A stretch of 64,000 nucleotides of DNA, taken from positions 1 through 64,000 of the forward strand of contig DASTAW010000058.1 in the NCBI GenBank assembly GCA_035712365.1, in the 5' to 3' direction. Position 1 is the first letter of the stretch. Each line of letters begins with the position of its first letter. The translations under genes and the position numbers were made by a program. The DNA comes from Terriglobia bacterium (GTDB lineage: Bacteria; Acidobacteriota; Terriglobia; UBA7540). Below, in pieces: positions 9,023-23,576 of this stretch. The notes under the pieces are model-generated. The model was given only the letters and a program-made list of their open reading frames with translations, was not told the origin of the DNA and ran no database searches.

Positions 9023-9436
9023 TTATACCTGCTGGGCGACCAGATGGGAAAGCGCGTCACTGACAAAGACTTTGCCCTCGGCGACCTGTCGAACTCCGCG
9101 GACCAGCTCTCCTACCGCACGATCTTTGAGAATGTAACCGTGGGCCCCAGCCTCCAGAGCTCGCCGAACGTAGTGGTAGTCGCGGTGGATGGTCAGGATG
9201 ATGGTGCGCGCTTCAGGAATAGACTTCCGGATCCGGCGGGCAGCTTCGATGCCGTTCAGGTGCGGCATTGAAAGGTCAAGCAGAATGACGTCAGGCCGGT
9301 GCTGAAGGGCAAGGGAAACCGCCTGTTCTCCATCGGCAGCTTCAATAATGACGTTGAGACCAGCCCGTTCAAGCAGGTTCCGCAGACTTCGGCGGACAAG
9401 CTCGTTGTCGTCGGCGAGCATGAGTCGCAGCGTCAT
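9023..9436 (-). CDS. Stand-alone response regulator receiver protein
   Basis: Receiver-only protein of about 137 residues. It has the acidic pair D9-D10, the phosphoacceptor D54 in LLDLSMPHLNG, T82 and the switch lysine K104, closely matching the NarL-type receiver of the neighbour at 9773. It ends at LVAQQV about where a linker to a LuxR helix-turn-helix would begin, and no HTH follows in any frame. It may therefore be a decayed NarL regulator, or a single-domain receiver acting as a phosphate sink or partner for the adjacent histidine kinase. The ATG at 9436 is chosen because the receiver fold begins there; the frame is open to 9640 but the extension looks non-coding and no good ribosome site is seen. 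Confidence 0.75.
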   Translation of the reverse strand: MTLRLMLADDNELVRRSLRNLLERAGLNVIIEAADGEQAVSLALQHRPDVILLDLSMPHLNGIEAARRIRKSIPEARTIILTIHRDYHYVRRALEAGAHGYILKDRAVGELVRGVRQVAEGKVFVSDALSHLVAQQV

Positions 9437-9772
9437 CGGCGATTTAAAGACTTCCCGATACTCCGGCCTGTTGGGGCGTTCTGATCGCAAGACCGTTCGA
9501 TTCCCCCCTGGGGTAATGCGGACGCTACCACCGGCCTTCACCTGGCTTGGCTCAATCCTGTGGCTGATCGGCCTTGTCCGTCCCGGATGTCCCAAGGTCT
9601 CTAGCCTCGGCTTGACATGCCAGCCTCGCGGGCCCCGCAACTCTGGCGCGGAGAACGACTCCCGGCGAGTTGCATCGTATCCGTCCGAAGGGCTACGGTC
9701 AATCCGGTAAACACCTTAGGAAATTGCCACGACTGCCGTATTGGGCAGGGCCTGTAAGGCGGCGGCAGAGGT
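9437..9772. other. Gap between two response regulator genes
   Basis: About 336 bases between the stand-alone receiver and the NarL-type regulator, both read on the minus strand. No gene, tRNA or obvious palindrome is supported. It probably carries the terminator of the Rsb operon and a promoter for the receiver gene, so the receiver may be transcribed separately. Confidence 0.4.
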
Positions 9773-10405
9773 TCAGGGTTGGACCAGGCCGCGTCGGATA
9801 GCATAACGAACGAGGCTAGCGGTTTCATGGATGTCGAGTTTCTCCATGATCCGGGTCCGGTGCGATTCGGCGGTTTTCACGCTGATATTCAGAAGGGAAG
9901 CCACCTCTTTGGTTGTTTTTCCTTCGGCGACGAGCTGCAAAACCTGAAGTTCACGCGGGCTGAGACTGTCGCTTGGAACATCAACCTTGTTCAGGTAGGC
10001 GTCGACAACTGTATCTGAAATATCAGAACTCAGGAAAGTCGAACCTCGCGAAACTTCGCGAATGGCCTGGACCAGTTCGCCAGCGGCGCGGCTTTTCAGA
10101 ACGTAGCCCCTGATTCCTGCGCGCAGAGCTTCCAGTACGTACTGGGCTTCTGTGTGCATGGTCAGGACGATCAATTTCGTCTGGGGACTTATCTGGCTGA
10201 TGGCCTTGGCCGCGCCGATCCCGTTCATCAAAGGCATTGCAAGATCAAGGATGGCAATGTCAGGCAACAATTCCTGTGCCAGGCGGGTGGCCTGGTGGCC
10301 GTCGGCGGCTTCGCCGACGACCTTGAAGCCCTCCTGCTCAAGAAGGGCCTTCAGTCCCTGGCGCACCATCTGATGGTCATCTGCCAGAAGGATACGTATA
10401 GGCAT
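9773..10405 (-). CDS. NarL/FixJ family response regulator
   Basis: DNA-binding response regulator of 210 residues. The receiver domain (1-120) has D9-D10, phosphoacceptor D54 and K104. A LuxR-type helix-turn-helix occupies about 148-208, with LSPRELQVLQLVAEGKTTKEVASLLNIS. The gene overlaps the 3' end of the histidine kinase gene by 29 bases, so the two form a coupled two-component pair. As the last gene of the Rsb operon it is the probable DNA-level output of the stressosome, replacing the sigma-B output known from Bacillus. Target promoters are unknown. Confidence 0.95.
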   Translation of the reverse strand: MPIRILLADDHQMVRQGLKALLEQEGFKVVGEAADGHQATRLAQELLPDIAILDLAMPLMNGIGAAKAISQISPQTKLIVLTMHTEAQYVLEALRAGIRGYVLKSRAAGELVQAIREVSRGSTFLSSDISDTVVDAYLNKVDVPSDSLSPRELQVLQLVAEGKTTKEVASLLNISVKTAESHRTRIMEKLDIHETASLVRYAIRRGLVQP

Positions 10406-11708
10406 CTTTTCCCTCCGATGGAACCTGAACCAAGATTTCCGTGCCTTTACCGGGACTGGAGTTGATTATACATTCCCCGCGCAAAGGAATCAGCCGTTCC
10501 CTGATTCCGATCAGTCCCAGGCCGGACCTTCCTTTCTGTCCCAGGACGGACTGGACGTCAAAGCCGGCGCCATCATCTGTAATGGTCAGATGGATTTTGT
10601 TCTGCTCCTTTTGGATCCGAATCGAAACATGAGCAGCCCTGGCGTGCTTATTGATATTACTGAGGGCTTCCTGAATGATGCGATAGAGCGCGACCTCCAC
10701 CTGGGGTGAAATCCGCCCGGCGGTGTCTCCCTCGACGGTGATTGGAATTCCGAACCGCTTTGAGACGCCCTGAGTCAGGAACTCCACTGCAGGAACCAGT
10801 CCGAGGTCGTCCAGAATGGTAGGCCGCAGTTCATGGGAAAGCCGTCTTAACTCTGTTTCAATCCGCTCAATGAGCCGCTTGATTTCTCCGATGGTCTGCT
10901 GGCCGGAAGGTGGCAGGTTATTCATCATCCCGTCGATTGCGATGTGGACCGACACCAGGAGCTGGCTTGCCTCGTCATGAAGCTCGTGGGCGATATGTTT
11001 CGCTCGTTCTTCGAGGGCTTCATTCAGCCGGTGCAGGGCTTGTTCGGCGCGCTTACGTTCTGATACGTCGCGAGCAATGCCCTGGATTCCGACGACTTTC
11101 CCCCCATTCAGTATCGGTCGAGCGCTAACCTCGATGGTAAGGGAGTGCCCATCTTTCGTCAGAATCTCGAGCTCACGCGTCAAGGGATCGCCACCGGCCA
11201 TCAGGTGCTGGAAAATCCTGGCAGCTTCCTCGATATGCTCCATCGCCAGCAGGTTGACGGGGATGGGAGGAGGCTCGTCCCGCCGATACCCAGTAAGCCT
11301 TTCGCCGGCCCTGTTGATGGACGTCAGCCTGCCTTCGGCATCAGCGGTGAAGACGATGTCATTTGCGTTTTCGAACAGCTCGCGGTAGCGTTCCTCGCTG
11401 GCCTGCAGGGCGGCGTTCGTTTCCCGATAGCCGCTGATCGTCATCTCATAGGGAGTGAGGGTTTCGATCAGAAACCTTTCGGACGCCTTCATAGCACCCG
11501 ACTTATCCCCAGCCTCGGGCAATTTTGGAAGGGAGCAGTTGAAGGCATCGCTATGAAGCGTGACCATTTCGATCAGGCTGATCTCCAGCCGCAGAGCGCG
11601 GCGCCCCAGTTCATAGGCTTCTTCCAGGGCCATATCGTCCTTCTTCTCCAGATAGGTCCGCAGGGCGGACTCGTACTGGCGCATGAGTTCACGCTGGCTG
11701 GCTTTCAT
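10377..11708 (-). CDS. PAS histidine kinase with RsbU-like N-terminal domain
   Basis: Cytoplasmic sensor kinase of 443 residues without membrane segments. Residues about 8-100 resemble the N-terminal RsbT-binding domain of RsbU: a helical segment with YESALRTYL, RRALRLEISLIEMVTLHSDAF and TPYEMTISGYRETN. A PAS/PAC domain follows at about 103-222. The HisKA_3 segment has the phosphorylatable histidine in AHELHDEASQ (H244). The ATPase domain at about 330-430 shows EALSNINKHA, DDGAGFD and GLGLIGIRERL. It overlaps the upstream phosphatase gene by 4 bases and the downstream regulator by 29. The simplest reading is that RsbT released from the stressosome binds the N-terminal domain and switches the kinase. 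The domain resemblance is by eye; a profile search would decide it. Confidence 0.9.
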   Translation of the reverse strand: MKASQRELMRQYESALRTYLEKKDDMALEEAYELGRRALRLEISLIEMVTLHSDAFNCSLPKLPEAGDKSGAMKASERFLIETLTPYEMTISGYRETNAALQASEERYRELFENANDIVFTADAEGRLTSINRAGERLTGYRRDEPPPIPVNLLAMEHIEEAARIFQHLMAGGDPLTRELEILTKDGHSLTIEVSARPILNGGKVVGIQGIARDVSERKRAEQALHRLNEALEERAKHIAHELHDEASQLLVSVHIAIDGMMNNLPPSGQQTIGEIKRLIERIETELRRLSHELRPTILDDLGLVPAVEFLTQGVSKRFGIPITVEGDTAGRISPQVEVALYRIIQEALSNINKHARAAHVSIRIQKEQNKIHLTITDDGAGFDVQSVLGQKGRSGLGLIGIRERLIPLRGECIINSSPGKGTEILVQVPSEGKDAYTYPSGR

Positions 11709-12322
11709 CGCGCCCTCCCCTGAAATTTGGCGACCAGCACCAAAGCGTCATCTGTGTCCAGTCCGTCACGCCTGAGAATGCTTTCTGCGGTCTTTTGAGG
11801 GCTCGCGGACAGGACCAGTCCGTCTTCAAATCCCTGCCGGATGCCATCCGTTGTAAGGACAACAGTGTCCCCGGAGGAGATCTTCAAGGCGGAGGCACGC
11901 AGCGGAGGCAGCTTTCCGCCGATGATCCCGCTGGACAACAACAGGCACTCCGTCACCGCTTTGCCGCCAGGCATCGAACGCACCAGAACTCCCTTAACAT
12001 TGCCCACGCCGAGCCATTCCATGGAGTTGTCGAGCGCGTTGAGCATGGCCACGGTCATGACGACACCGCGCGTCTGGTGCAGTTTCTGATTGCAATTTTC
12101 GAGCACCTGGGCCAGCGGCTGGTGAGCACACGCTTCTACTGTCTCCAAAGCGAGCCGGGCAGCTTCCGCGGCCGCCGCGCCATGGCCCAGCCCGTCAGCG
12201 ACGGCAAGCAGGACACTATCTCCTAGCGGCTTCACCACGTGCAAGTCACCCGACAGCGTTTCACCGGCCATACGCCTTTCCGCCACGCCCCATTCGACGA
12301 GGTTGGAATTCATGACTTCCAT
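11705..12322 (-). CDS. SpoIIE/RsbX-like PP2C phosphatase
   Basis: Small PP2C-type phosphatase of 205 residues, close to RsbX (about 200). Metal-binding acidic motifs are visible: GDSVLLAVADGLGHG at about 34-48, TTDGIRQGFEDG near 157-168, and TDDALVLVAKF near the C-terminus. In Bacillus RsbX dephosphorylates RsbR and RsbS to reset the stressosome, and the position beside rsbT supports the same job here. Translation begins within the end of rsbT (13-base overlap); an in-frame ATG at 12313 is an alternative start. The gene symbol is withheld because RsbX and SpoIIE-type phosphatases cannot be separated by eye. Confidence 0.88.
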   Translation of the reverse strand: MEVMNSNLVEWGVAERRMAGETLSGDLHVVKPLGDSVLLAVADGLGHGAAAAEAARLALETVEACAHQPLAQVLENCNQKLHQTRGVVMTVAMLNALDNSMEWLGVGNVKGVLVRSMPGGKAVTECLLLSSGIIGGKLPPLRASALKISSGDTVVLTTDGIRQGFEDGLVLSASPQKTAESILRRDGLDTDDALVLVAKFQGRAR

Positions 12323-12720
12323 TTGATTGTGGTCACCGTCGTCCCGCGGCCCTTATGGGAGACGATGGCAAATTCATCCATCATTCGACGTACGCCCGGC
12401 AAGCCCAGGCCCAGTCCTCCCGAAGTGGAATACCCATCCTTCAGGACGGCCTCGACATCCGGAATGCCTGGACCCTCGTCTGTCGCCTGGATAACAATGC
12501 CTTTCTTCGGTTCCCTTTCGATTGCCCAACAGATGAGGCTTCCATTTCTTGCATAGAGCAGAAGGTTGCGCGCCAGTTCTGAGATAGCTGTGGCGATCAT
12601 GGCCAGTTCTGACGGGCCGAAGCCGAGGCGGACGCCCAGTTCCCGCCCTTCCTGCCGGGCAGAGAGGATGTCCTCATCCGATTTGATCGACACTCGGACT
12701 TCATTTTCCGTGCTGGCCAT
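12310..12720 (-). CDS. rsbT: RsbT serine/threonine kinase (stressosome switch)
   Basis: GHKL-type protein kinase of 136 residues, the usual RsbT size. The N-box ELARN is at 48-52, the G1 box DEGPGIPD at 81-88 and the G2 loop GGLGLGLPG at 101-109. In known RST modules RsbT phosphorylates RsbS and RsbR, leaves the complex on stress and activates a partner. Here no rsbU or sigma-B lies nearby; the histidine kinase two genes downstream carries an RsbU-like N-terminus and is the likely partner. The gene overlaps rsbS by 20 bases and the phosphatase gene by 13. Confidence 0.94.
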   Translation of the reverse strand: MASTENEVRVSIKSDEDILSARQEGRELGVRLGFGPSELAMIATAISELARNLLLYARNGSLICWAIEREPKKGIVIQATDEGPGIPDVEAVLKDGYSTSGGLGLGLPGVRRMMDEFAIVSHKGRGTTVTTIKWKS

Positions 12721-13081
12721 GGTCCATCCGTTTCGTCCTTCGGCTCATATACTCGAGCCCTTCTTCCAGATCGAGAGCAGTTGCAACTCCTTCCAGTTTG
12801 AGACCGAGCTGGACCATCGAAAAAGCAACCTCCGGCTGGATACCGACGATGACCGTCCGCGCTCCCCGTAGCCTTATCATGGTGGCAATGTCGCTCAGTG
12901 TCCGGCAAGCGAATGAGTCGAGAACGTCCAGGGCGGTGACATCGACAATCACCCCTCGGGACCGGTATGTCCCGACTTTTTCTGTTAAAGAATCCCGCAA
13001 ATTGATCAGGTCAGCGTCCCGCAAGGCCGCCTGCACAGAAGCGATCAGATACTGTCCCTGCTTCAGGATTGGAACCTGCAT
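12701..13081 (-). CDS. rsbS: RsbS STAS-domain stressosome scaffold
   Basis: Single STAS-domain protein of 126 residues. The conserved phosphorylation site is S56 in LDVLDSFACR, matching the DSF motif of Bacillus RsbS, and the GIQPEVAFSMVQLG segment follows at 80-93. It should co-assemble with RsbR into the stressosome core and hold RsbT. It begins 3 bases after rsbR ends and overlaps rsbT by 20 bases. The C-terminal tail with RRTKRMDHGQHGK extends a little past the usual domain end. Confidence 0.94.
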   Translation of the reverse strand: MQVPILKQGQYLIASVQAALRDADLINLRDSLTEKVGTYRSRGVIVDVTALDVLDSFACRTLSDIATMIRLRGARTVIVGIQPEVAFSMVQLGLKLEGVATALDLEEGLEYMSRRTKRMDHGQHGK

Positions 13082-13084
13082 GGC

Positions 13085-13996
13085 TTAGTTTCCTTCCCCC
13101 TGCTCATCCTGTTCAGATAAGTCGTCCACCCGGATTACTCGATAACCCAACAACCGGTCAGCCTCCTCGATGCCGCCCCGCAGATCGCAGACCGTGTGCA
13201 TTTTGTTCAAGTCAACACTGATGGTGACTAGCGTCTGGGCAATCTCAGGTGACAACCCCGTAACGATCGCCGTTGCCCCCAGCAGGCGGGCGGCTTCGAC
13301 CGTGAGTACGAGATGGTTGGCCACGGTTGAGTTGATGGAGGGAACGCCCGTAACATCGATCACCACCACCTTGGCGCGGTTGGCGCGGATGCCACGCAGG
13401 AGTTGGCCGGTCAACTGGTGCGCTCGCTGCGGATCGATCACGCCGACGATGGGCAGGATGAGCAATCCCTCCCGGACCGGCAGGACCGGGGTTGAGAGCT
13501 CCCTGATGGCGGCCTGTTGCTGGTGGATGATTCTCTCGCGTTCGTGGACGAATCCTGCTGCCACCGTCACGGTTATGCGACGGGCCGCCGGCTCAAAGGC
13601 GTCCAGCATACGCGTGAGCAAATCCACACGGGATTGGTACGTTGCCAGGAGCGAACGCAGCAGGACGTCGCGGAGAAGAAGGACGATTCCTATCACTTCG
13701 TGAGTTTCCACGCCTCGCGGAATAATCCGTTCCGAGAGGTTGCGCGCATAGGCCTCCAGAGCTTCAACGGCGCCGGTTTCCAAAACATCAATGTAGTTAT
13801 CGTAGATGGACGCCGTCTCAGTCAGTATCTCATCCTCGCTCATCGCCGTTAGAAGCTGCGCTTCGGTAATGCGGCGCGCCCATGCTGCGCGCAAGCCGGT
13901 TCTGTTTTTGCGGAGATGGTCAACGAGTTCAGTGAAGACGCCAGAGGGCCCATTTTGGGACCGGGGGCCTGATTTCCTTTTCCTGGACGCAGGCAT
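13085..13996 (-). CDS. rsbR: RsbR-type stressosome sensor with C-terminal STAS domain
   Basis: Stressosome sensor protein of 303 residues. Residues about 20-155 form an all-helical N-terminal sensor domain of the RsbR kind. Residues 170-283 form the STAS domain. The two phosphorylation positions of Bacillus RsbR map to S223 in PSINSTVA, where the usual Asp-Thr is Asn-Ser, and to T255 in PEIAQTLV. The Asn before the first site is a departure that could alter how phosphorylation is sensed. It is first in the operon; a pair of overlapping palindromes lies 47-70 bases upstream. The physical signal sensed is unknown. Confidence 0.93.
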   Translation of the reverse strand: MPASRKRKSGPRSQNGPSGVFTELVDHLRKNRTGLRAAWARRITEAQLLTAMSEDEILTETASIYDNYIDVLETGAVEALEAYARNLSERIIPRGVETHEVIGIVLLLRDVLLRSLLATYQSRVDLLTRMLDAFEPAARRITVTVAAGFVHERERIIHQQQAAIRELSTPVLPVREGLLILPIVGVIDPQRAHQLTGQLLRGIRANRAKVVVIDVTGVPSINSTVANHLVLTVEAARLLGATAIVTGLSPEIAQTLVTISVDLNKMHTVCDLRGGIEEADRLLGYRVIRVDDLSEQDEQGEGN

Positions 13997-14670
13997 GGGG
14001 GTTCTCCTCCTTGCTTTCGCCTAATTCCTTGTCCTGGCTCCCCATACGTTAGGCAATTGCCGTATGCGCCGCAACGCGGCAGAGAGTGCGAAAAGCCTGA
14101 GAAACAACATGCAAGGACTCACGGTCTCCCGCACAGTCTCGCTCCCTTGCAGGCGGGTAGCAGCTCTGACGGCCTGTTTCCAAGATCCGGGCGAAATGCG
14201 GACGCCTTTGAGGGGACCCCATCCGCTGCCGCTGCCGCTGCTTCAATTTTAAGAGTTTTGCCTTTTCCGGGGCAACGTGTCAAATCCTTTTGAATTGAAA
14301 GATTCAGCCATCATCCTCGCCCTCGGCGGAACAATTGTAACGATGCCGCAGCCGATTGAGGTGAAGGGAGGATGGAGTGCCTGTTCTTTTCAGGCAGGTG
14401 GGCTTGAGAGGGGCTGCTTTAGCCGGGGCGGCTCCATTCCGGTACTGCAAAACATTTCCGCAAACGGAACAAGTTTGCATGCGGTTGGGCCCTCAAGGGC
14501 CAGGCCGGACATCCTGGAACGATCTCTGTTCCTGCGTTGCAAGCCACACAATGCCCGCAGCTTATACAAGCATTGCCCATGCCGAACCCGACACCGTGTT
14601 CACGCGCCAGGCTTTTGGAAGGCGATGTGCTCTCGAAGTCGCCCGAAGTTGGCACACAGAGGGAGCGATA
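13997..14670. other. Divergent intergenic region, Rsb operon versus EPS regulator
   Basis: About 670 bases separate rsbR (minus) from the first AAA+ regulator (plus). Besides the palindromes at 14043-14066, a small GCCTG/CAGGC hairpin occurs near 14380. The frame of the AAA+ gene is open from 14377, but codons up to about 14670 look non-coding. No tRNA or -24/-12 promoter was recognised. Confidence 0.45.
14043..14066. promoter_or_regulatory. Overlapping palindromes upstream of rsbR
   Basis: CATACG (14043-14048) and CGTATG (14061-14066) form an inverted repeat, and inside it GGCAATTGCC (14052-14061) is a perfect 10-base palindrome with a different centre. They sit 47-70 bases before the rsbR start, in the place expected for an operator of the Rsb operon. 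Confidence 0.4.
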
Positions 14671-15726
14671 GTGGCCGAAGAAATCGCGGCTTTGACAACC
14701 AGTTACGGACTACTTCCTCCGGAGCCGGTGGTTCTTGGCGTATCAAGCGCGATGAAAGAGATCCGGGATAAGGTCGAAAAGATTGCTTATACCGATGTTC
14801 CCGTCCTTATCCGTGGAGAAGCCGGCAGCGGAAAAGAAGTTCTGGCCAGGCTCATTCATAAGAAATATCCCGGTGAATTTACTCCCTTCCACAAGATAAG
14901 CCCGGCGGGAAGTGCGGGATGGCGGAAGAGCGCCAGCTTTATGTTCTCCGAGGAACAAGTCAATGGCGACAATGGAAATGCTCAATCTCTCCCGGAGGGA
15001 TCGGGAAGGCCGGGATGCATTGGCACGTTGTTCTTTGATGATGTGGCGGAGCTGAATGCTGCTTCCCAGCGCCATCTGACGCAGTTGCTACACGATGACC
15101 GGCCATCCGGCATGGGCCTTTCCGACTACTCTCCCGCGTTGTTCCGGGTGGTTTGCAGTACCGGGCATGATCTTGAACGGGAAATGAGTCTGGGAAATTT
15201 CCGCGAGGACCTCTTCTATTCCATCAATGTTGTCAGCCTGCCGCTTCCCTCCTTGCGGTCGCGGCGCGACGATATTCCTGGGTTGGCGTGGTATTTCTGG
15301 GAGACATATCGGCAGGAGCTGGGCTTAAACGCTCCCGCGCCTTCAACCCGTCTGGTCCATGTTCTTCAGGAGTACGACTGGCCGGAAAATATCAGCGAAC
15401 TCGCGGGCGTCATGAGGCGCTACGTGCTTCTGGGTTCCGTGGACGAAATTGCCGAGGCCCTGGCTGCAAAGGTATCGCTGCCGGCGGGGTGCGAAGCCCC
15501 CTCGATGCGAGGCATTTCCCTGAAAAGACTGGCGAAGCAGGAGGCGCAGGAACTTGAGCGGAAGATCATTTTCAAAACACTCCGCGAAACCCAGTGGAAC
15601 CGGAAGCAGGCGGCGCGAACGTTAAACATTAGCTACCGAACTCTGCTCTACAAGATCAAGGAGGCCGGAGTGCCGCCGAAAAGAATCGTGATGAAGCGGG
15701 AGAAAACAATTGAAGAACCTTACTGA
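14671..15726 (+). CDS. Degenerate sigma-54-activator-like AAA+ protein (GAFTGA absent)
   Basis: AAA+ regulator of about 351 residues related to bacterial enhancer-binding proteins. It has Walker A GEAGSGKE at 49-56, a Walker B-like TLFFDDV at 119-125, the FREDLFYSINVV segment near 177-188 and a Fis-type helix-turn-helix at the C-terminus (WNRKQAARTLNISYRTLLYKIK). The GAFTGA loop that contacts sigma-54 is missing: the space between Walker A and B holds an unrelated Gly/Ser-rich stretch. It also has no N-terminal sensor domain. It may bind DNA and act without sigma-54. The GTG at 14671 is preferred because GGAG lies 5 bases before it and the paralogue has a similarly short N-terminus; ATG at 14551 is the alternative. 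Confidence 0.8.
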   Translation: MAEEIAALTTSYGLLPPEPVVLGVSSAMKEIRDKVEKIAYTDVPVLIRGEAGSGKEVLARLIHKKYPGEFTPFHKISPAGSAGWRKSASFMFSEEQVNGDNGNAQSLPEGSGRPGCIGTLFFDDVAELNAASQRHLTQLLHDDRPSGMGLSDYSPALFRVVCSTGHDLEREMSLGNFREDLFYSINVVSLPLPSLRSRRDDIPGLAWYFWETYRQELGLNAPAPSTRLVHVLQEYDWPENISELAGVMRRYVLLGSVDEIAEALAAKVSLPAGCEAPSMRGISLKRLAKQEAQELERKIIFKTLRETQWNRKQAARTLNISYRTLLYKIKEAGVPPKRIVMKREKTIEEPY

Positions 15727-16111
15727 GCCGAAACGCCCGACGACGGACCGGGGCCAACTGGATGCATCGGAGTTGAAAAGGCGTGCAGTAGAGGACGCTT
15801 TCAAGGATGCCGATTCTTATGCCGTCGCCGCAAGATCACACGCCAACACGACCTTTTCAGTTAAGCGAGTCAACCCGGTTTCTTATTTGATGAAGACGAA
15901 ACAATCGCCGGTGTCTGTCGGTTCACAGGAAGGGATTGATGGTGTTCTGGTCCACGCGAATGACAGCCAAGCCACCCTGGTTCTTTCAGACGAGCTGTTG
16001 CAAGTCTCCCTCGCGGATGAGGCTGCCGCTCTGGTGGATGAGCCGATAAGGATATTCCGCGTTTGGGGTCCCTCGCCCTGGGTGGAACAGGTGCTAGCGG
16101 GCAAAGCGTGA
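15710..16111 (+). CDS. Hypothetical protein with TTG start, coupled to AAA+ regulator
   Basis: A 133-residue protein of unknown function. The TTG at 15710 has a strong GGGAG seven bases before it and lies inside the last codons of the AAA+ gene (17-base overlap), which suggests translational coupling. The N-terminal third is charged and probably helical; the C-terminal part (about 75-125) reads as alternating strands with a GVLVHANDSQATLVLSDELLQVSLADEA pattern. No signal peptide, membrane segment or metal motif is seen. No family is recognised. The overlap and ribosome site are the main reasons to regard it as real. Confidence 0.6.
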   Translation: MKNLTEPKRPTTDRGQLDASELKRRAVEDAFKDADSYAVAARSHANTTFSVKRVNPVSYLMKTKQSPVSVGSQEGIDGVLVHANDSQATLVLSDELLQVSLADEAAALVDEPIRIFRVWGPSPWVEQVLAGKA

Positions 16112-16777
16112 GAGTGCGTGGCCCACAAGCGAGACCGTTGCTGGATCGCAGTATTGAGACCTCCTTATTTTACCTGAGTCCGTATCGGTTGATTTCCTTA
16201 CGAGCGCTCACTACCCGATGATCAGTCGTTGAGTAGCATGAGCACGCCAGCAAGCGCCGGTCGAATGATCTGCAAGCAGATGCAAACTGTTTCACCCACT
16301 TTTACTTGCCATTCTCTTCTCGGATCAGAGGCAGAGTATTAGGCGCCATGAGCTTACAGCCGTCGATCATCTCGCGTGCCATGGACATGGAGTGCAATGC
16401 AATTCTCAGGCATGAATGAGTTTGCATGATGTGAAGTTCGCCTCCGGATTCGACCGGCGAGCTCCAGAGGCATTTGTCGATCGCAACCAGCGCCTAAGTT
16501 ACCGCAACAGAGCGGGATAGAAGCGTGGCTCGCCCCAAGGTTTCGAGCGCGGTGCTTTTCGGAAGCTGGCCAAGGTTTGGCAAGTCATGTGCGAGTAGAT
16601 AACTGCACACTTCTTATCGGGTTACCGAGACAGGAGTGGGGCGTTGGGTCTTCCTTCCGAAGAGTTCCCATCGAAGGTCGGGTTCCTTCAGGAATTCTAG
16701 GGCGGAAATCACCTGGCTAGATCGGAAAAAGTCCGACACTTGCTATGCGATCCGGAAGCGAAGAAGAGGAATCACGT
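16112..16777. other. Long non-coding gap before second AAA+ regulator
   Basis: About 666 bases without a supported gene; all frames are short and interrupted. No tRNA, no strong terminator hairpin and no -24/-12 (TGGCAC-N5-TTGC) promoter is visible. The stretch is less GC-rich than its neighbours and probably contains the promoter for the regulator/UpxY/EPS operon. It could also encode a small RNA, for which there is no direct evidence. Confidence 0.4.
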
Positions 16778-17845
16778 ATGGGAACTACGTTGAAGACTTT
16801 TGATGGCTGTCTAACTGCTGGTCAGCCGCTTCCGTCCAGAGGAACTATTGTTGGCCACAGCGAAGGAATGCGGCGGTTATGGCAGATTGCAGAAAAGGTC
16901 GCCGGCGCCAGCGTGCCAATCCTGATCGTGGGAGAAAAAGGAACCGGAAAAGAAGTCGTTGCGCGATTTATCCACAGTTGCAGCCCCGGCGCCAATGCCC
17001 CATTCCTTAAATGGAGTTTGCCGGCTCCGGATGGACCCGCCAGCGACGAAATTGCGTTTCGCCTGGAACCCGAGGGGCTTGGTGACCAGGAAGAGATGAG
17101 CGGGAACGGAAAGTCCCGCCGACGGTTGTGTACCCTCTTTGTTGATGAAGTTCCCGAGTTGGAACCCGAGCGGCAATCGGAGCTGTTGCAGTTGATTGAG
17201 GGATCCCGGCCCTTCATTTCCAGCGATGGCAGAAGCGTTCTGGTTTCGTTGCAGGTCATCGCCACAAGTGCCCGCGATTTGGAGCAGGAAGTGGCCGCCG
17301 GGAAGTTCCGTGCCGACCTTTTTTCCGCCCTCAGCGCGGTGACGTTGCGGTTGCCTCCGTTGCGGGAACGCCGAGAGGATATTCCGCAGCTTGCCGCTTA
17401 TTTCTGGCGGATTTACAGCGAGAGGTTTGGCCGCCAGCCGGCGCCCCCGGACTCTCGCCTGGTCGAACGTCTTCAGCAGCACGCGTGGCCAGGAAATGTT
17501 CGCGAACTGGAAAACGTGATGAAGCGCTACGTGGTTCTGGGGGTCGACGGAATCGAGGGGGCCGGGTCGGCCGAGCCACAGAGGGCGTTTGCCTTCGCAC
17601 CTTCTAACGGCCATTCCGTTTCTTTGAAGCAGGTAAGCCGTGAAGCGGCCCAGGCGCTGGAACGCAAGATCATTCTCCGGACCCTGCAGGAGACTCAATG
17701 GAACCGCCGGCGTACGGCGCGAGCGCTGAATATCAGCTATCGTGCGCTTCTTTACAAGATCAAGGCGGCTGGGCTGCTGCCGGAAGAGTCGAAGGTTGGC
17801 GCACGCAACAGGGAATTTCTGAAGACGAGTGACAAGGCAGCGTGA
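16778..17845 (+). CDS. Second GAFTGA-less AAA+ regulator with Fis-type HTH
   Basis: Paralogue of the protein at 14671, about 355 residues. Walker A GEKGTGKE is at 52-59, Walker B LFVDEV at 120-125, and the arginine-finger region reads FRADLFSALSAVTLRLPPLRERREDIP. The Fis-type helix-turn-helix is at about 285-325 (WNRRRTARALNISYRALLYKIK). As in its paralogue the GAFTGA loop is absent, so classical sigma-54 activation is unlikely. The ATG at 16778 has GAGGA seven bases upstream and is preferred to the in-frame ATG at 16745. Its stop overlaps the UpxY-like gene by 4 bases, tying it to EPS expression. Confidence 0.85.
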   Translation: MGTTLKTFDGCLTAGQPLPSRGTIVGHSEGMRRLWQIAEKVAGASVPILIVGEKGTGKEVVARFIHSCSPGANAPFLKWSLPAPDGPASDEIAFRLEPEGLGDQEEMSGNGKSRRRLCTLFVDEVPELEPERQSELLQLIEGSRPFISSDGRSVLVSLQVIATSARDLEQEVAAGKFRADLFSALSAVTLRLPPLRERREDIPQLAAYFWRIYSERFGRQPAPPDSRLVERLQQHAWPGNVRELENVMKRYVVLGVDGIEGAGSAEPQRAFAFAPSNGHSVSLKQVSREAAQALERKIILRTLQETQWNRRRTARALNISYRALLYKIKAAGLLPEESKVGARNREFLKTSDKAA

Positions 17846-18501
17846 CAGAGGATTGGGACATGGCCCTTTGCAACACTCCTTTTGACAGCAGTGCAGTTTC
17901 GGCGACGAGCAGCATGTGGTACGCGGTACACACTCGTCATCAGCACGAAAAACTGGTTGCCGATATGCTGGCCAACAAAGGGTTTGAGGTATTTCTCCCT
18001 CTTTACTCGGATGTCCGGCAATGGCGGGACCGGACGAAGATGGTGGAATTGCCGCTCTTTTCCTGCTACGTCTTCCTCCGCGGCGATCTTGACCGCAGGC
18101 TCCCCATCCTCACTACGCCCGGAGTTCACGGAATGTTGGTGACGGCGGGCAAGCTGGCAGGAATTCCTGAAGAAGAAATCCAGGCGGTGCGGAGCGTGGT
18201 CGAGAACCGCGTCAGCGTGGAGCCGCACCCATTTCTCAAATGTGGTGACCTCGTCCGGGTGAAGTATGGAGCGCTGCGAGGCATGGAGGGGTTCCTGGTG
18301 CGAAAAAAGGGGCAGACCCGGCTGATTATTTCGGTGGCTCTGCTGGAGAGGTCGGTTGCAGCGGAGGTCGACGCGAGTGCTGTTGAAGCAGTCGCAGGGC
18401 CGCAGGCCGGGACGACGGCCCGATTGGCCCCGGCACGGTTGGCCAGAGGTTGGGGATTCGGAAATGCCTTTCCGGAGCCAGCGCACACGGGCTCTTCGTA
18501 G
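17842..18501 (+). CDS. UpxY-type transcription antiterminator (NusG paralogue)
   Basis: NusG-family elongation factor of about 219 residues. The NGN domain covers about 25-125, with WYAVHTRHQHEKLVADMLANKGFEVFLP and the FSCYVFLRGDLDRR segment. A KOW-like region follows near 150-185 (GDLVRVKYGALRGMEGFLVRKKGQTRLI). Such paralogues prevent premature termination in long polysaccharide operons, which fits the 40 kb of genes that follow. The GTG at 17842 overlaps the preceding stop (GTGA); an ATG at 17860 with GAGG eight bases upstream is an equally good start. The last 40 residues past the KOW region are Ala/Arg-rich and unusual. No ops-like recruitment site was identified. Confidence 0.9.
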   Translation: MTEDWDMALCNTPFDSSAVSATSSMWYAVHTRHQHEKLVADMLANKGFEVFLPLYSDVRQWRDRTKMVELPLFSCYVFLRGDLDRRLPILTTPGVHGMLVTAGKLAGIPEEEIQAVRSVVENRVSVEPHPFLKCGDLVRVKYGALRGMEGFLVRKKGQTRLIISVALLERSVAAEVDASAVEAVAGPQAGTTARLAPARLARGWGFGNAFPEPAHTGSS

Positions 18502-18569
18502 CAGTCTGCAGGCCGCAATTGATGATTTCAATATTCAAGGGTTTTTCGATGCGCGAAGGGAGGCAGGAT

Positions 18570-19691
18570 ATGTCAAGGATATGGGTGTGCCTCGTGGCCC
18601 TCGTGGCTGCGGGGACCCTGAACGCTTCGGCCCAGTCACCCGGCCCTGCCAGCCAGGCGCTCCTAACGTCCGGCATCAGCAATACCAAAATGGAAACCAC
18701 TGACGACTGGAACCGCCGCCTCGATAGCTTGGTCCATTCGGCCCTCTCCAGCGGTCAGAACAGCCCGTCACCGGGTGATTATCGGATCGGACCGGACGAC
18801 CAGCTTCAAGTTACCGTATTTGGCGCGCCCGATCTCAGCCAGGCCGTCCGCGTCGCAGCAGACGGTGATATTTCACTGCCGCTGCTGGGGACGATCAAAG
18901 CCGCTGGACTGACGCCGCGCGAACTCGAGCTGGTCCTGCAGGCGCTGCTTCGCCGCACCTACATGAAGGACCCCCAGGTGACCGTCACAGTCACTGAAGT
19001 GCAAAGCCATAGCGTTTCTGTAATGGGGGCCGTCAAAGCGCCGGGGGTGTTTCAGATTCGCGGGACGAAGACGCTTCTCGAAATGCTCTCCATGGCGCAG
19101 GGACTCTCGCCAGACGCTGGAGACGCAGTGCTGGTAATGCGAGGTGCAGGACTTGACGGGGTTTCACGTCCCATGACTACGAATGCCGGGAGAAAAGCGG
19201 ACTCCACGGGCGCGACTTCGGACGCCCCGCCCTCCGCCGAATCTGCGAAGGCTGGAATGGGGGACACCATTGAGGTCAGCCTTAAGCGCCTGCTTGATTC
19301 GGGAGACTCCAAGTACAACGTCGCAGTCTATCCCGGAGACATCGTCAAGGTCAAAGCCGCGGGAATCGTCTATGTCGTTGGCGACGTCATGCGGCCGGGT
19401 GGATTCCCCATACAGGCCAACGGACACATTACGGTGTTGCAGGCGATTGCCCTCGGCGAGGGGATCGGCCCCGATGCTGACAAAAAGAAGGCCAAGATCA
19501 TTCGGATCGCAGAGAATGGACAGCAAATCGAACTGCCTGTCCGTCTGAACGAGATTCTTAGCGGAAAGACGCCCGATCCCGCGCTCCAGCCCAAGGATGT
19601 TTTGTATATCCCCAAGAATGGAGCAACGTCGGCCGGCAAGGCGGCACTCAGGACGTTCTCACAATGGATCGTTTGGCGCGCAGTTCCATGA
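18570..19691 (+). CDS. Wza-like polysaccharide export protein (SLBB domains)
   Basis: Outer-membrane polysaccharide export protein of 373 residues. The ATG at 18570 follows GGGAGG by six bases and begins a signal peptide (SRIWVCLVALVAAGTLNASAQ). No lipobox cysteine is seen, unlike E. coli Wza. The Poly_export domain starts at about residue 68 (GDYRIGPDDQLQVTVFG), followed by SLBB domains (about 150-220 and 285-345; VVGDVMRPGGFPIQANGHITVLQAIALGEG). It should form the periplasm-spanning and outer-membrane channel together with the Wzc-like kinase encoded 40 bases downstream. Confidence 0.93.
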   Translation: MSRIWVCLVALVAAGTLNASAQSPGPASQALLTSGISNTKMETTDDWNRRLDSLVHSALSSGQNSPSPGDYRIGPDDQLQVTVFGAPDLSQAVRVAADGDISLPLLGTIKAAGLTPRELELVLQALLRRTYMKDPQVTVTVTEVQSHSVSVMGAVKAPGVFQIRGTKTLLEMLSMAQGLSPDAGDAVLVMRGAGLDGVSRPMTTNAGRKADSTGATSDAPPSAESAKAGMGDTIEVSLKRLLDSGDSKYNVAVYPGDIVKVKAAGIVYVVGDVMRPGGFPIQANGHITVLQAIALGEGIGPDADKKKAKIIRIAENGQQIELPVRLNEILSGKTPDPALQPKDVLYIPKNGATSAGKAALRTFSQWIVWRAVP

Positions 19692-19731
19692 GCGAGACGG
19701 TGAATTCCGGGCAGCACTTGGAGACTTTGAT

Positions 19732-22173
19732 ATGACCGAAGAGAATAAAATTCAACTCTACAGAGGCGGAGTCTTGTCAAAGGTCCGGAGGCTTTCGGCG
19801 ACGGTCGTGAACTCAAGCTCGCCAAGCCCCGACGGGGACATTGACCTGAGCTACCTCTTGCGGGTGCTCCGTGACCACTACCGCACAGTCCTGGCTTCCG
19901 GCATTTCAGTAATGCTCTTGGCTCTGCTGATTTCGCTCTGCATGACGCCGGTCTATCGCTCTCAAGCGACCATTGAGGTCAAGGAAGCGACACCAGACAT
20001 CGAGAGTCTGGACCAGTTGCAAAGCCGGAGTGCTGCTCCCAATAACGTCGTCGTGACCGAGGTTGAGACGGAGATCGGGATCCTCAAGAGCGATACTCTG
20101 GCCCGGCAGGTCATCAATCAGGTCCTGCTGGCGAAGGACCCCAACCAGAATTCTGCAGATATTTTCCGCAGCATCTGGCATGGGATCGTCCACTGGTATA
20201 CGGGGTCTGATTCCGACGCTCCCTCCAATCAGGGCACCAGCCCTGCCGCTCAGGCCGGACCGCAGGTTGCTGATGCTGGTTCAGACGCCGCTTCACCCGC
20301 GTCTGCAATGGACCCGAAAGCCTACCAGCGCATCGTGGACCATTTTGAAGCTTCGCTTGCAGTTTCACGCATTGGGAGCAGCCGGCTGGTGACGATCACC
20401 TATGAGGGCAGCGACCCTCGCCTCACGGCCAGGGTCGTAAATGCCGTGGTCGCCGACTACATGCAGTTGCACGAACGCGCCACTGAGAAGTTCACCAAAA
20501 TGCTGGCCCAGCAAGTCCAGGAAGCGAAGGACGAATTGGAACAGTCAGAGCAGAAGATGACGCTCTACGCGCGCCAACACGATCTGCTCTATCTGGAGAC
20601 CAATACGGGCAATACACAGAATATCGTCAGTGAGCGCCTCCGGCAGATTCAGGACCAGTTGACCCAGGCGCAGTCAGACCGCTACCAGAAGGAGTCGCTC
20701 TACAACCTTGTGCAGAAGGGAGACTATGGCTCGCTTCCGGGTGTCTTTGACGACAAGCTCCTCGAGATCCTTACGGAGAAGGTGGCGGACCTCAAGACCC
20801 AATATGCCCAACTGTCGTCTACGTTCACGGACAGCTATCCCAAAGTCAAGGAACTCAAGAGCCAGCTCGCGGTGGCAGAGCAGACCCTGGCTCGTGAGCG
20901 CCAGCGCGCCGCTGGAACGATCACCAACGATTACCTGGCGTCCGTTCGGCGTGAAGCTCTTCTCGCCCATGCGTACCAGGGACAGAAGGATGCTGCCATT
21001 TCGGTGGCCGATCGGTCTACGCAATACAACATATTGAAGCGGAACGCGGATTCCGACAATGCGCTTTACGAGAGCATTCTGCAAAAGGTTAAAGAAGCCA
21101 GCCTGGTTGCCCGGATCAAATCGAACAATGTGAACGTCGTTGATCGTGCTGTGCCGCAATTCCTGCCCGTCAAGCCAAAAATTGTGTTCAATCTGGCACT
21201 GGGCCTCATCCTGGGGCTGGGGCTGGGTCTTGGAATTGCTTTCTTGCGGACGCATTTTGACACTACCTTGAAAACTGTGGAGGAAGTTGACCGCTTCCTG
21301 GGTCTGCCGGCCCTGGCGATGATTCCGGCGGTGGATTCGCTTTCCGAACTCGTTGTGGACGGCAACCATGATAACGGCCACGGTCTGGTGCTCCCTGGGA
21401 TTCTCGATACGACGCAGATGTCAAAGGCCGAGGCTCCCTGGTACCGGATTGATAAACAGATTCAGCAGAAATACTCGCCCTTGGTGGAGGCTTTCCGGAC
21501 CCTCGGAAGCTCCGTGATGTTGGAAGCCGCTGGACGCAAGAGAGTGCTCCGCAGCATCGTTGTCACCAGCTCCCAGCCAGGCGAGGGGAAAACCACGGTT
21601 TCGGTGAACCTGGCGATCGCGCTGGCCCAGCAGGGAAGCCGCGTCATCCTCGTTGACGCTGACCTCCGCCGCCCTGCGGTCCACCGGGCGCTTGGATTCA
21701 GGAACCTACGCGGGCTCTCGAGCTACCTTGGAGGAATGAGCGAGTGGGCTCCCTGCATTTTGCCGGGACTCTCGCCTGGACTTGACACCCTGCCTGCCGG
21801 GCGCTCGGCCAAGAACCCGATTGCTCTGCTTTCTTCGACGCGAATGAGGATCCTGATCAGTGAGCTGCTTGAGGAATACGACTATCTCGTCGTTGATTCT
21901 CCAGCGTTGATGCCTAACCTGATGGACGCCCGCATTCTGGCCGGCCTGGTTGACGGCGCCCTGATGGTGGTTCGAAGCGGCATGGCCCCTCGGGACTATG
22001 TCATCAGGGCGCGCAAGCAATTGAACAACATCATCGGTGTGGTCCTGAACAGCATGGATGTGCGGGCCATGGAGGACTACTACGGCTATGACTCCTACGG
22101 ATATGGCAGCAGCAGCGGAGAAGGCGAGGAAGGTTCCGACCGCACTCCGTATGAGAAGCGCGTAGCCGGATAG
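19732..22173 (+). CDS. Wzc-like polysaccharide copolymerase / tyrosine autokinase
   Basis: Inner-membrane chain-length regulator fused to a BY-kinase, 813 residues. The Wzz domain runs between membrane helices at about 45-70 and 485-505, with a long coiled-coil periplasmic region (about 235-430). The kinase has Walker A SSQPGEGKTT at about 614-623, Walker A' VILVDADLRRP near 641-651 and Walker B YDYLVVDSPAL. A C-terminal tyrosine cluster (EDYYGYDSYGYGSS) provides autophosphorylation sites. The ATG at 19732 has GGAG eight bases before it. Phosphorylation cycles are known to control polymer length and export; a dedicated phosphatase gene is not seen in this window. Confidence 0.95.
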   Translation: MTEENKIQLYRGGVLSKVRRLSATVVNSSSPSPDGDIDLSYLLRVLRDHYRTVLASGISVMLLALLISLCMTPVYRSQATIEVKEATPDIESLDQLQSRSAAPNNVVVTEVETEIGILKSDTLARQVINQVLLAKDPNQNSADIFRSIWHGIVHWYTGSDSDAPSNQGTSPAAQAGPQVADAGSDAASPASAMDPKAYQRIVDHFEASLAVSRIGSSRLVTITYEGSDPRLTARVVNAVVADYMQLHERATEKFTKMLAQQVQEAKDELEQSEQKMTLYARQHDLLYLETNTGNTQNIVSERLRQIQDQLTQAQSDRYQKESLYNLVQKGDYGSLPGVFDDKLLEILTEKVADLKTQYAQLSSTFTDSYPKVKELKSQLAVAEQTLARERQRAAGTITNDYLASVRREALLAHAYQGQKDAAISVADRSTQYNILKRNADSDNALYESILQKVKEASLVARIKSNNVNVVDRAVPQFLPVKPKIVFNLALGLILGLGLGLGIAFLRTHFDTTLKTVEEVDRFLGLPALAMIPAVDSLSELVVDGNHDNGHGLVLPGILDTTQMSKAEAPWYRIDKQIQQKYSPLVEAFRTLGSSVMLEAAGRKRVLRSIVVTSSQPGEGKTTVSVNLAIALAQQGSRVILVDADLRRPAVHRALGFRNLRGLSSYLGGMSEWAPCILPGLSPGLDTLPAGRSAKNPIALLSSTRMRILISELLEEYDYLVVDSPALMPNLMDARILAGLVDGALMVVRSGMAPRDYVIRARKQLNNIIGVVLNSMDVRAMEDYYGYDSYGYGSSSGEGEEGSDRTPYEKRVAG

Positions 22174-22191
22174 GCGATTCGGTTTGGGCCG

Positions 22192-22226
22192 GCAGGCAAG
22201 CCTGCAACCCCATGCAAGGGGTTGCA
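22192..22226 (+). terminator. Overlapping stem-loops after the tyrosine kinase gene
   Basis: GCAGGC-AA-GCCTGC (22192-22205) overlaps a stronger stem TGCAACCCC-atgcaa-GGGGTTGCA (22203-22226; 9 pairs, 6-base loop). The two share bases and are mutually exclusive. No T-run follows, so it is either a Rho-assisted terminator, an RNA-stability element or an attenuator that the UpxY antiterminator could override. Confidence 0.45.
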
Positions 22227-22277
22227 GCAAGGCCCTCGCGGGTAAAAACAGGGTAAGGACCCAGGGCGCTTTATAGG

Positions 22278-22367
22278 GCCACAAGCGGTGTGGCTCAGAG
22301 GGCGGAGCTACGCGCCAGAGGCGCAAGAGCAATCTTTGAGTTCCAGGTCCACTGCCATCCGTGGCAG
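22278..22367 (+). promoter_or_regulatory. Further hairpins in leader of the sugar transferase gene
   Basis: GCCACA-agcgg-TGTGGC lies at 22278-22294 and CTGCCA-tccg-TGGCAG at 22352-22367, with a GGCGC-rich stretch between. Together with the stems at 22192-22226 they make the 260-base gap before the sugar transferase unusually structured. A 5' leader that controls readthrough is plausible but unproven. Confidence 0.4.
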
Positions 22368-22433
22368 CAATCAGCCTGTGCCATTTTCTGCGGGGAGTAG
22401 GACGACCCAAGCTCTTTTTCCCAGGTGAGGCTT

Positions 22434-23576
22434 ATGCCACTTCGTGCTATGCGCAATCAATGGAATCCCGGGGGTACGACTCCATCGTTGCCGGAGGTTC
22501 TCCCGGTTATCGGCGACGGACCTGTCCCCAGTGAAACACGATTCGGAGAACTTCTTTGCTTAGAGCGGAGAAGGGCGGAGCGGTCGCGAAAGCCTTTCCT
22601 GCTGATGCTCCTTGACCTGCGCAAGGTCTTGGTGAACGGCAACAGCGAAAAGGTTGTCGAGAATGTCTGGGCTTCGGCGTGTTCGGCCTCGCGCGAGTCG
22701 GACATCCGCGGATGGTATTTGCAGGGTGCTGTTCTCGGCATCATATTCATTGAAGTGAAGGCCGACGGACCCGTGCCGGTCAGCGACATCATCCATGCCA
22801 AAGTTGTCGCAGCCCTTTCCAGCCGCCTCGAAATCCATGACGTTGAGCGTATCGACATCCGGATGTACCTGCAGCCGGACAGCGCCTCCAACTGGGAAGA
22901 TTGGTCGGGACTCTACCGTGACTTGCGTGAAAGGGATTCAGACAAGAAATTGCATCGCATCGTCAAGAGGGGTCTGGATATCATCGGAAGCGCGACAGCT
23001 CTCCTGGCGCTTGCCCTTCCCATGGCGGTCATTGCCCTGCTCATCAAGTTGACGTCCAAAGGGCCCATTCTGTTCCGGCAATCGCGGGTGGGTTACCGCG
23101 GTGTGCCGTTTACCTTTCTGAAGTTCCGGACCATGCGTCACAGCAATGACGGCGCCGTCCACAAGGAATTCATTCAGAGGTTCATTGCCGGCGAGATGAA
23201 TTCAGCGGGTCAGGCGCCCGTTTACAAGATCACAGACGATCCCCGTATTACTCCGGTCGGAAAGCTTCTGAGGAAGACCAGTCTGGATGAATTGCCGCAG
23301 TTCTGGAATGTGCTGACGGGAGAAATGTCACTGGTGGGACCGCGGCCTCCAATTCCCTACGAGGTTGAATACTACGACATATGGCACAGGCGACGGGTTC
23401 TCGAGGTCAAACCCGGCCTGACGGGTTTGTGGCAGGTCAAGGGACGCAGCCGCACGACGTTCAACGAAATGGTTCGGCTTGACTTGCAGTATGCGAAACA
23501 ATGGTCGGTATGGCTCGACCTGAAGATCCTGTTTGAGACGCCGATCGCCATGATCTCTGGCGACGGAGCTTATTGA
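22434..23576 (+). CDS. Polyprenyl-phosphate sugar transferase with N-terminal extra domain
   Basis: Initiating glycosyl-1-phosphate transferase, about 380 residues. The catalytic part (about 170-380) has one membrane helix ([24 protein letters not shown]), KFRTM, the [22 protein letters not shown] segment and [13 protein letters not shown], all typical of bacterial sugar transferases. It lacks the usual multi-helix N-terminus. Instead residues about 25-165 form a soluble domain with a [23 protein letters not shown] pattern, reminiscent of GGDEF-like folds without the GGDEF signature. The ATG at 22434 is chosen; a GTG at 22425 is in frame. It should transfer the first sugar phosphate onto undecaprenyl phosphate for the repeat unit built by the downstream genes. 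Confidence 0.9.

Follow-up and report, generated by a model that had tools for sequence, protein, structure and literature searches.

What do activator-like proteins do at an exopolysaccharide (EPS) locus when they have lost GAFTGA, the loop that contacts sigma-54? The question is raised by two genes, here called A and B, which lie ahead of an EPS cluster in a 64,000-nucleotide stretch of Terriglobia bacterium DNA (GenBank assembly GCA_035712365.1, contig DASTAW010000058.1, positions 1 to 64,000; hereafter the window). Our comparison of this locus with related genomes suggests that A and B are most likely operator-binding proteins, unable by themselves to fire sigma-54, whose action goes through or is directed at a partner that carries GAFTGA, and that they probably tune a sigma-54-type switch rather than replace it.

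Two AAA+ proteins without GAFTGA

14671-15726, plus strand: A, 351 amino acids, GTG start; GAFTGA-less AAA+ protein with a Fis-type helix-turn-helix (HTH), without a sensory domain
16778-17845, plus strand: B, 355 amino acids; GAFTGA-less AAA+ protein with a Fis-type HTH, without a sensory domain

The preliminary description of this DNA was correct in the coordinates of A and B, their missing GAFTGA, the lack of a sensory domain, the Fis-type HTH and their paralogy, which amounts to 39% identity. PF00158 matched A at about 97–98 bits and B at 88 bits (cut-off 20.2), HTH_8, the Fis-type HTH, matched at 46 and 35.5 bits, respectively (cut-off 22), and AAA_lid_14 was matched in both; the family scan gave no domain beyond these three, and none before the AAA+ core. 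Membership of the PrsR family was rejected, the scores (P0001, 139.5 bits; P0002, 145.7 bits) lying far under the TIGR02915 cut-off of 502.6 bits.

Walker A is intact in both proteins, the switch Asn is replaced by Ser, and the RxDxxxR motif is retained only in part, its second Arg being Ser in A and Ala in B; in A only, Walker B reads DD, not DE, and NISEL stands in place of NVREL. Alignment with nine activators of the same genome (the remaining two loci, L001 and L009, were read separately) showed that sensor I ATN is also missing from A and B. The claim that Walker A, Walker B and the arginine-finger region are all present stands for Walker A and part of the Arg motif, and needs correcting for the second Arg and for Walker B of A. 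In PspF, substitutions at R162, D164 or R168 drastically reduce ATPase activity and make hexamers constitutive (PMC3419264). If that rule transfers, A and B should be nearly ATPase-dead constitutive hexamers.

An AlphaFold2 model of B had a mean predicted local distance difference test (pLDDT) score of 78, with core blocks mostly above 90, and nearly all of residues 87–112, the expected place of loop L1, scored below 50. Foldseek neighbours of the model were NtrX, ZraR, NtrC1 and VpsR. The ratio of nonsynonymous to synonymous substitution (dN/dS) among three congeners was 0.09–0.15 for A and 0.10–0.22 for B, a range like that of UpxY and of the candidate partner discussed below; by this measure, both genes are under purifying selection.

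A conserved lineage linked to EPS loci

A and B belong to a group of ten proteins from seven genomes, which form a single clade (clade 1) at 100/99 support. Distribution was counted over 39 family genomes and 299 class genomes: clade-1-level scores (at least 492 bits) occurred among the 299 in the same seven genomes only, the next score being 446. A contig-wide scan with an alignment profile gave, among the matches listed, distant relatives only (at most 38% identity) and has no bearing on the distribution. Two congeners (L049 and L050) are syntenic with the window through the stressosome-like module, A, orfC, B, UpxY, Wza and Wzc; four more family genomes hold one clade-1 gene each, ahead of the antiterminator gene UpxY, and every clade-1 locus runs on into UpxY. 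These observations support a real and conserved GAFTGA-less, EPS-associated lineage.

GAFTGA is missing from all ten aligned clade-1 proteins, and a displaced copy was likewise rejected, none being found in the alignments. Residues read from the alignment show that the Walker A Lys is kept in 10/10 and the first Arg in 8/10, the second Arg in none; Walker B DE is intact in three of the ten and the switch Asn kept in two, while much of the HTH is invariant throughout. In both trees clade 1 is nested within receiver-less proteins that carry GAFTGA, of which several are encoded at EPS loci, and the fork uniting it with the nearest GAFTGA group has weak support (89/73, 91/77). A and B each group with a protein from another genus, so their duplication is older than the genus. 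A second GAFTGA-less clade (clade 2; five proteins in the tree, 100/100) stands ahead of a shorter wza-like gene, so that loss of the loop probably happened on two or more occasions.

L051:5694-6680, L060:17148-18191, L061:2583-3596, L064:11801-12838, L068:7509-8588, L234:2306-3349 and L237:4905-6086: clade 2 genes, before a wza-like gene

A LuxR-type HTH protein, in which no receiver domain was recognised, lies between the clade-1 gene and UpxY at L059:8051-8761 and L065:13731-14465.

Operators and -24/-12-like elements

14446-14479, no strand assigned: two-tier 34-bp operator of A, exact TGCAA-N5-TTC-N8-GAA-N5-TTGCA; upstream of A, in a block conserved in three congeners
16393-16426, no strand assigned: two-tier 34-bp operator of B, exact match to the same pattern; upstream of B, conserved in congeners
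14615-14631, plus strand: -24/-12-like element of A, TTGGAAGGCGATGTGCT; 154.5 bp from the operator centre and about 40 bp before the GTG; 3 mismatches
16577-16593, plus strand: -24/-12-like element of B, TTGGCAAGTCATGTGCG; 169.5 bp from the operator centre and about 185 bp before the ATG; 3 mismatches

The operator pattern was derived by aligning the upstream DNA of the three congeners (footprinting), in which the block before A is nearly invariant and the block before B conserved while the flanks diverge. Exact matches in the 4.67-Mb genome are the A and B sites only. With at most one mismatch the pattern occurs at eight places in the 39 family genomes, seven of them before clade-1 genes, and a reversed-pattern control gave none; L056, which is of another genus and was not used to derive the pattern, has an exact operator about 200 bp before its gene, and L052 has one with 3 mismatches. 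Outside clade-1 loci, an operator-like site (G002:C6:124403; with 2 mismatches at G000:C20:42961) was seen near unrelated genes; operator-like sequence at L110:4962-4995 (2 mismatches) and L109:5404-5437 (1 mismatch), corresponding positions in two congeners, has genes without an evident EPS link nearby.

Downstream of the operators we looked for GG-N10-GC, counting mismatches against the sigma-54 consensus. Eight operator centres were tested (six in the genus, L056 and L052), and seven of these genes have an element with at most 3 mismatches 153–170 bp downstream of the operator centre, the best being that of L056 (1 mismatch). The shuffle probability of an element at 150–180 bp is 0.002–0.005 per gene (0.0034 for A and 0.0044 for B), for an interval picked after the first cases had been viewed and for congeners that are not independent. 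A 2-mismatch -24/-12-like element was also found in L065, directly before UpxY.

The same layout before GAFTGA-bearing sister genes

Operator and element at similar spacing also precede orthologs and GAFTGA-bearing sister genes. For a comparison across the class, 20 regions and then another 40 were taken and activator genes classed by HTH and loop; a few genes (2/52 sister, 1/34 receiver-type and 1/7 other genes) were dropped because their upstream DNA was too short or Walker A could not be recognised. Among the GAFTGA sister genes, 14 of 50 have the element (shuffle mean 0.47) and 15 of 50 the two-tier operator (0.10), 36 being without the element by the strict test. Clade 1 has the operator in 7/10 (0.01) and the element within 110 bp of the anchor in 4/10 (0.12); in the three B genes of the genus the element is about 205 bp upstream. 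Clade 2 has the element in five of seven genes (0.06) and the operator in none (0.01). Receiver-type genes have neither (element 0/33, shuffle 0.36; operator 0/33, 0.04), nor do the other activator genes (0/6). Since the layout recurs among orthologs and GAFTGA sisters and is absent from receiver-type genes, GAFTGA was probably lost within a retained sigma-54-type circuit.

The operators themselves differ in one respect. The sister genes have GGAA...TTCC in the inner and the outer arms of their operators, the outer arms being GGAA-type in 14 of 15 cases; all seven clade-1 operators have outer TGCAA/TTGCA with the inner TTC/GAA kept. This gives two types of half-site, and we take the clade-1 operators for hybrid dimer sites; the plainer account would be a single protein whose recognition is degenerate.

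Sigma-54 and a candidate partner

The genome has one sigma-54 gene, rpoN (PF04552, 196 bits). The preliminary description had seen no -24/-12 promoter, which is probably wrong, as a -24/-12-like element lies past the operator of each gene in a conserved place. It had further suggested a sigma-54-independent class dedicated to EPS operons; the EPS-linked lineage is real, whereas the independence sits badly with rpoN, the operators and the -24/-12-like elements, and the class itself would not be new, TyrR, DhaR and HupR being known already as GAFTGA-less sigma-70 actors.

Besides A and B, a PF00158 scan of the genome gave 11 loci at 211–255 bits, with four more matches that were weak (under 30 bits), and the recognition helix SYRxLLYK is confined to A and B among its activators. 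A candidate partner is the activator at G000:C15:73820-75004 (the C15 activator), a 396-amino-acid frame with GAFTGA, without a receiver and with a NarL-type regulator alongside. Its protein falls into one group, supported at 99/97, with those of G001, G002, G014, G022, G006, G005 and G051; a G021 protein was assigned to this partner clade outside the tree, by 61% identity and its HTH. The partner clade is present in all seven clade-1 genomes as against two of the 32 others (three if a partial match in G009 is counted), and in G014 and G022 the partner gene lies inside the clade-1 locus, with roughly 6 and 8 kb, respectively, between it and the clade-1 gene. A symmetric TGCAA-N4-TTGCA precedes the partner operon in all three congeners, with conserved arms and different cores; the congeners have 5, 10 and 6 such places per genome, and it was not found in the short loci of other genera.

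Proposed mechanism and competing explanations

The reading we prefer, tentatively and at somewhat less than an even chance, is that A and B bind DNA but are dead for activation, and partner an activator that has GAFTGA at sigma-54-type promoters. Their ancestors would have been receiver-less sigma-54 activators at EPS loci, from which the loop contacting sigma-54 disappeared together with much of the hydrolysis apparatus, and which retained Walker A, the HTH, their own operator and a -24/-12-like promoter. As ATP-bound oligomers, A and B would occupy the two-tier operators, and a GAFTGA-bearing activator, most likely the C15 activator, would contact sigma-54 and fire the promoters from which A-orfC and B-UpxY-EPS are transcribed, UpxY then aiding elongation. 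Operator binding by A and B, use of the promoters by sigma-54, joining of A and B with the partner and a positive effect are all steps that we infer from sequence; the hybrid sites and the co-occurring partner are what a helper role would lead one to expect, and the loss of activity fits negative feedback. A more specific form, which we consider doubtful, is a split sigma-54 activator, with A and B as the DNA-binding and assembly half on GGAA-type inner half-sites and a separate GAFTGA protein with an altered HTH as motor and sigma-54 contact on TGCAA-type outer half-sites, the operator having evolved from symmetric GGAA...TTCC to a hybrid TGCAA...TTCC that needs both. If true, one activator would be divided into halves between different polypeptides, and its operator would consist of two corresponding parts.

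Several observations weigh against the partnership. The elements of A and B, with 3 mismatches each, are weak alone, although their place is conserved; in L052 the sole element, at 175.5 bp, has 5 mismatches, and no convincing operator was found ahead of the activator-like gene in L059 or L065. The co-occurrence of clade 1 and the partner clade (Fisher test, 2e-6 to 8e-6) ignores kinship and carries no correction for phylogeny; the partner gene is unlinked to A and B in the window's genus, G005 and G051 have the partner clade without clade 1, and G006, G021 and G001 also hold GAFTGA sisters that might act in its place.

The same operators, elements and sister layout would serve a negative feedback equally, in which A and B, made from sigma-54-type promoters, return to their operators, block or poison the true activator and so cap EPS expression. 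That operators stand solely before A and B in the genome agrees with it, and a mixed ring is expected to gain no activity from subunits without GAFTGA and the Arg; feedback alone, however, leaves the TGCAA outer half-sites and the coupled presence of the partner clade unexplained, and two paralogs, each with a private operator, look elaborate for simple repression. We regard it as an unlikely explanation. Much the same standing is given to a role at sigma-70-type promoters, which A and B might activate or repress like TyrR, Rhodobacter capsulatus NtrC and VpsR. The missing GAFTGA, the structural proximity of VpsR to the B model and published precedent, which includes an EPS regulator (PMC3162934), all speak for this. 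Yet the conserved element past the operators is of the -24/-12 type and spaced as in the GAFTGA sisters, and no sigma-70 promoter above chance was found in 13900-16800, a scan yielding one promoter-like match, on the minus strand, against 1.4 expected, in an E. coli-type search that other promoter types would escape.

A and B might also be decaying remnants of a lost pair of sigma-54 regulators, their catalytic residues having been lost to varying degree among clade-1 members. We find this very improbable: a pseudogene pair was rejected on the dN/dS values (0.09–0.22 over both genes, resembling UpxY and the partner), the Lys of Walker A, like much of the HTH, is invariant in 10/10, and the operators are conserved while their flanks diverge.

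The surrounding EPS locus

9023-13996, minus strand: divergent stressosome-like module, syntenic in L049 and L050 and mostly so in L065
15710-16111, plus strand: orfC, a small conserved protein overlapping the end of A, with homologs in L049 and L050
17842-18501, plus strand: UpxY-family antiterminator (NF033644, 119 bits, cut-off 100)
18450-23576, plus strand: export genes downstream of UpxY (Wza-like, BY-kinase/Wzc-like and polyprenyl glycosylphosphotransferase), from family matches

The coupling of B to UpxY, as described earlier, is confirmed, the B stop (17843-17845) overlapping the UpxY GTG start (17842). No family was matched by orfC in the domain and family library scans. The stressosome-like module comprises RsbR-like, STAS, RsbT-like, SpoIIE-type phosphatase, histidine kinase, NarL-type regulator and receiver-domain proteins; the kinase is of RsbU_N, PAS and HisKA_3 composition and adjoins the NarL-type regulator, and RsbT in this module may drive a two-component kinase rather than a phosphatase. 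The A/RsbR intergenic region has a second invariant block, at about 14250-14292 of the window, with a TTGCC...GGCAA inverted repeat. A further TGCAA repeat (TGCAACCCC-ATGCAA-GGGGTTGCA, 22203-22226), in the gap ahead of the glycosylphosphotransferase gene, probably forms a hairpin and is not included among the operators.

Comparison with known systems

GAFTGA-less regulators, hetero-oligomeric activators and sigma-54 sites in EPS regulation are each known. For the combination here, in which conserved -24/-12-like elements and a two-part operator precede genes for loop-less subunits, no published account was found, judged by titles and abstract openings, with most subscription journals not covered. 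GAFTGA-less proteins are commonly filtered out as unrelated to sigma-54, as in PMC3162934; if loop-less proteins sit within a sigma-54-type circuit, as they appear to do here, the loop may be no guide, by being there or missing, to the sigma factor at work in a locus. With its short operators, a candidate partner and ancestor genes that can still be recognised, this is a compact system for studying the role of a loop-less subunit in an activator ring.

PrsK/PrsR regulation combines a sigma-54 site with a conserved upstream motif in EPS-linked PEP-CTERM genes (PMC1569441); PrsR differs in having a receiver and a sigma-54 interaction domain. VpsR of Vibrio cholerae, like A and B, is activator-like and of the AAA+ type; its GAFTGA region is defective and it controls EPS genes (PMC3162934), and it is a sequence and fold neighbour of B. 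It differs in that the match starts about 160 residues in, leaving an N-terminal part that A and B lack, and in binding c-di-GMP (by a PDB title); the A and B genes, unlike VpsR, stand behind -24/-12-like elements with a two-tier operator.

GAFTGA was also lost and DNA binding kept in Rhodobacter and Caulobacter NtrC (PMC10274813) and in TyrR, DhaR and HupR, which act with sigma-70, as is predicted for VpsR (PMC3162934). Unlike what we propose for A and B, these NtrC proteins, TyrR, DhaR and HupR act at sigma-70 promoters, and the E. coli TyrR sequence, unlike A and B, retains the switch Asn, DE and RxDxxxR. These proteins carry a regulatory domain, whereas A and B have none before the AAA+ core.

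The closest parallels to the proposed mechanism are the hetero-oligomeric activators FleQ/FleT, HrpR/HrpS and the VnfA paralogs, in which unequal paralogs are thought to share one sigma-54 activator complex (PMC9542535, PMC11999139). A GAFTGA-bearing protein of the partner clade is present in all seven clade-1 genomes. In FleQ/FleT the odd partner is without DNA binding; the odd partners proposed here, A and B, would keep DNA binding and be without the sigma-54 loop.

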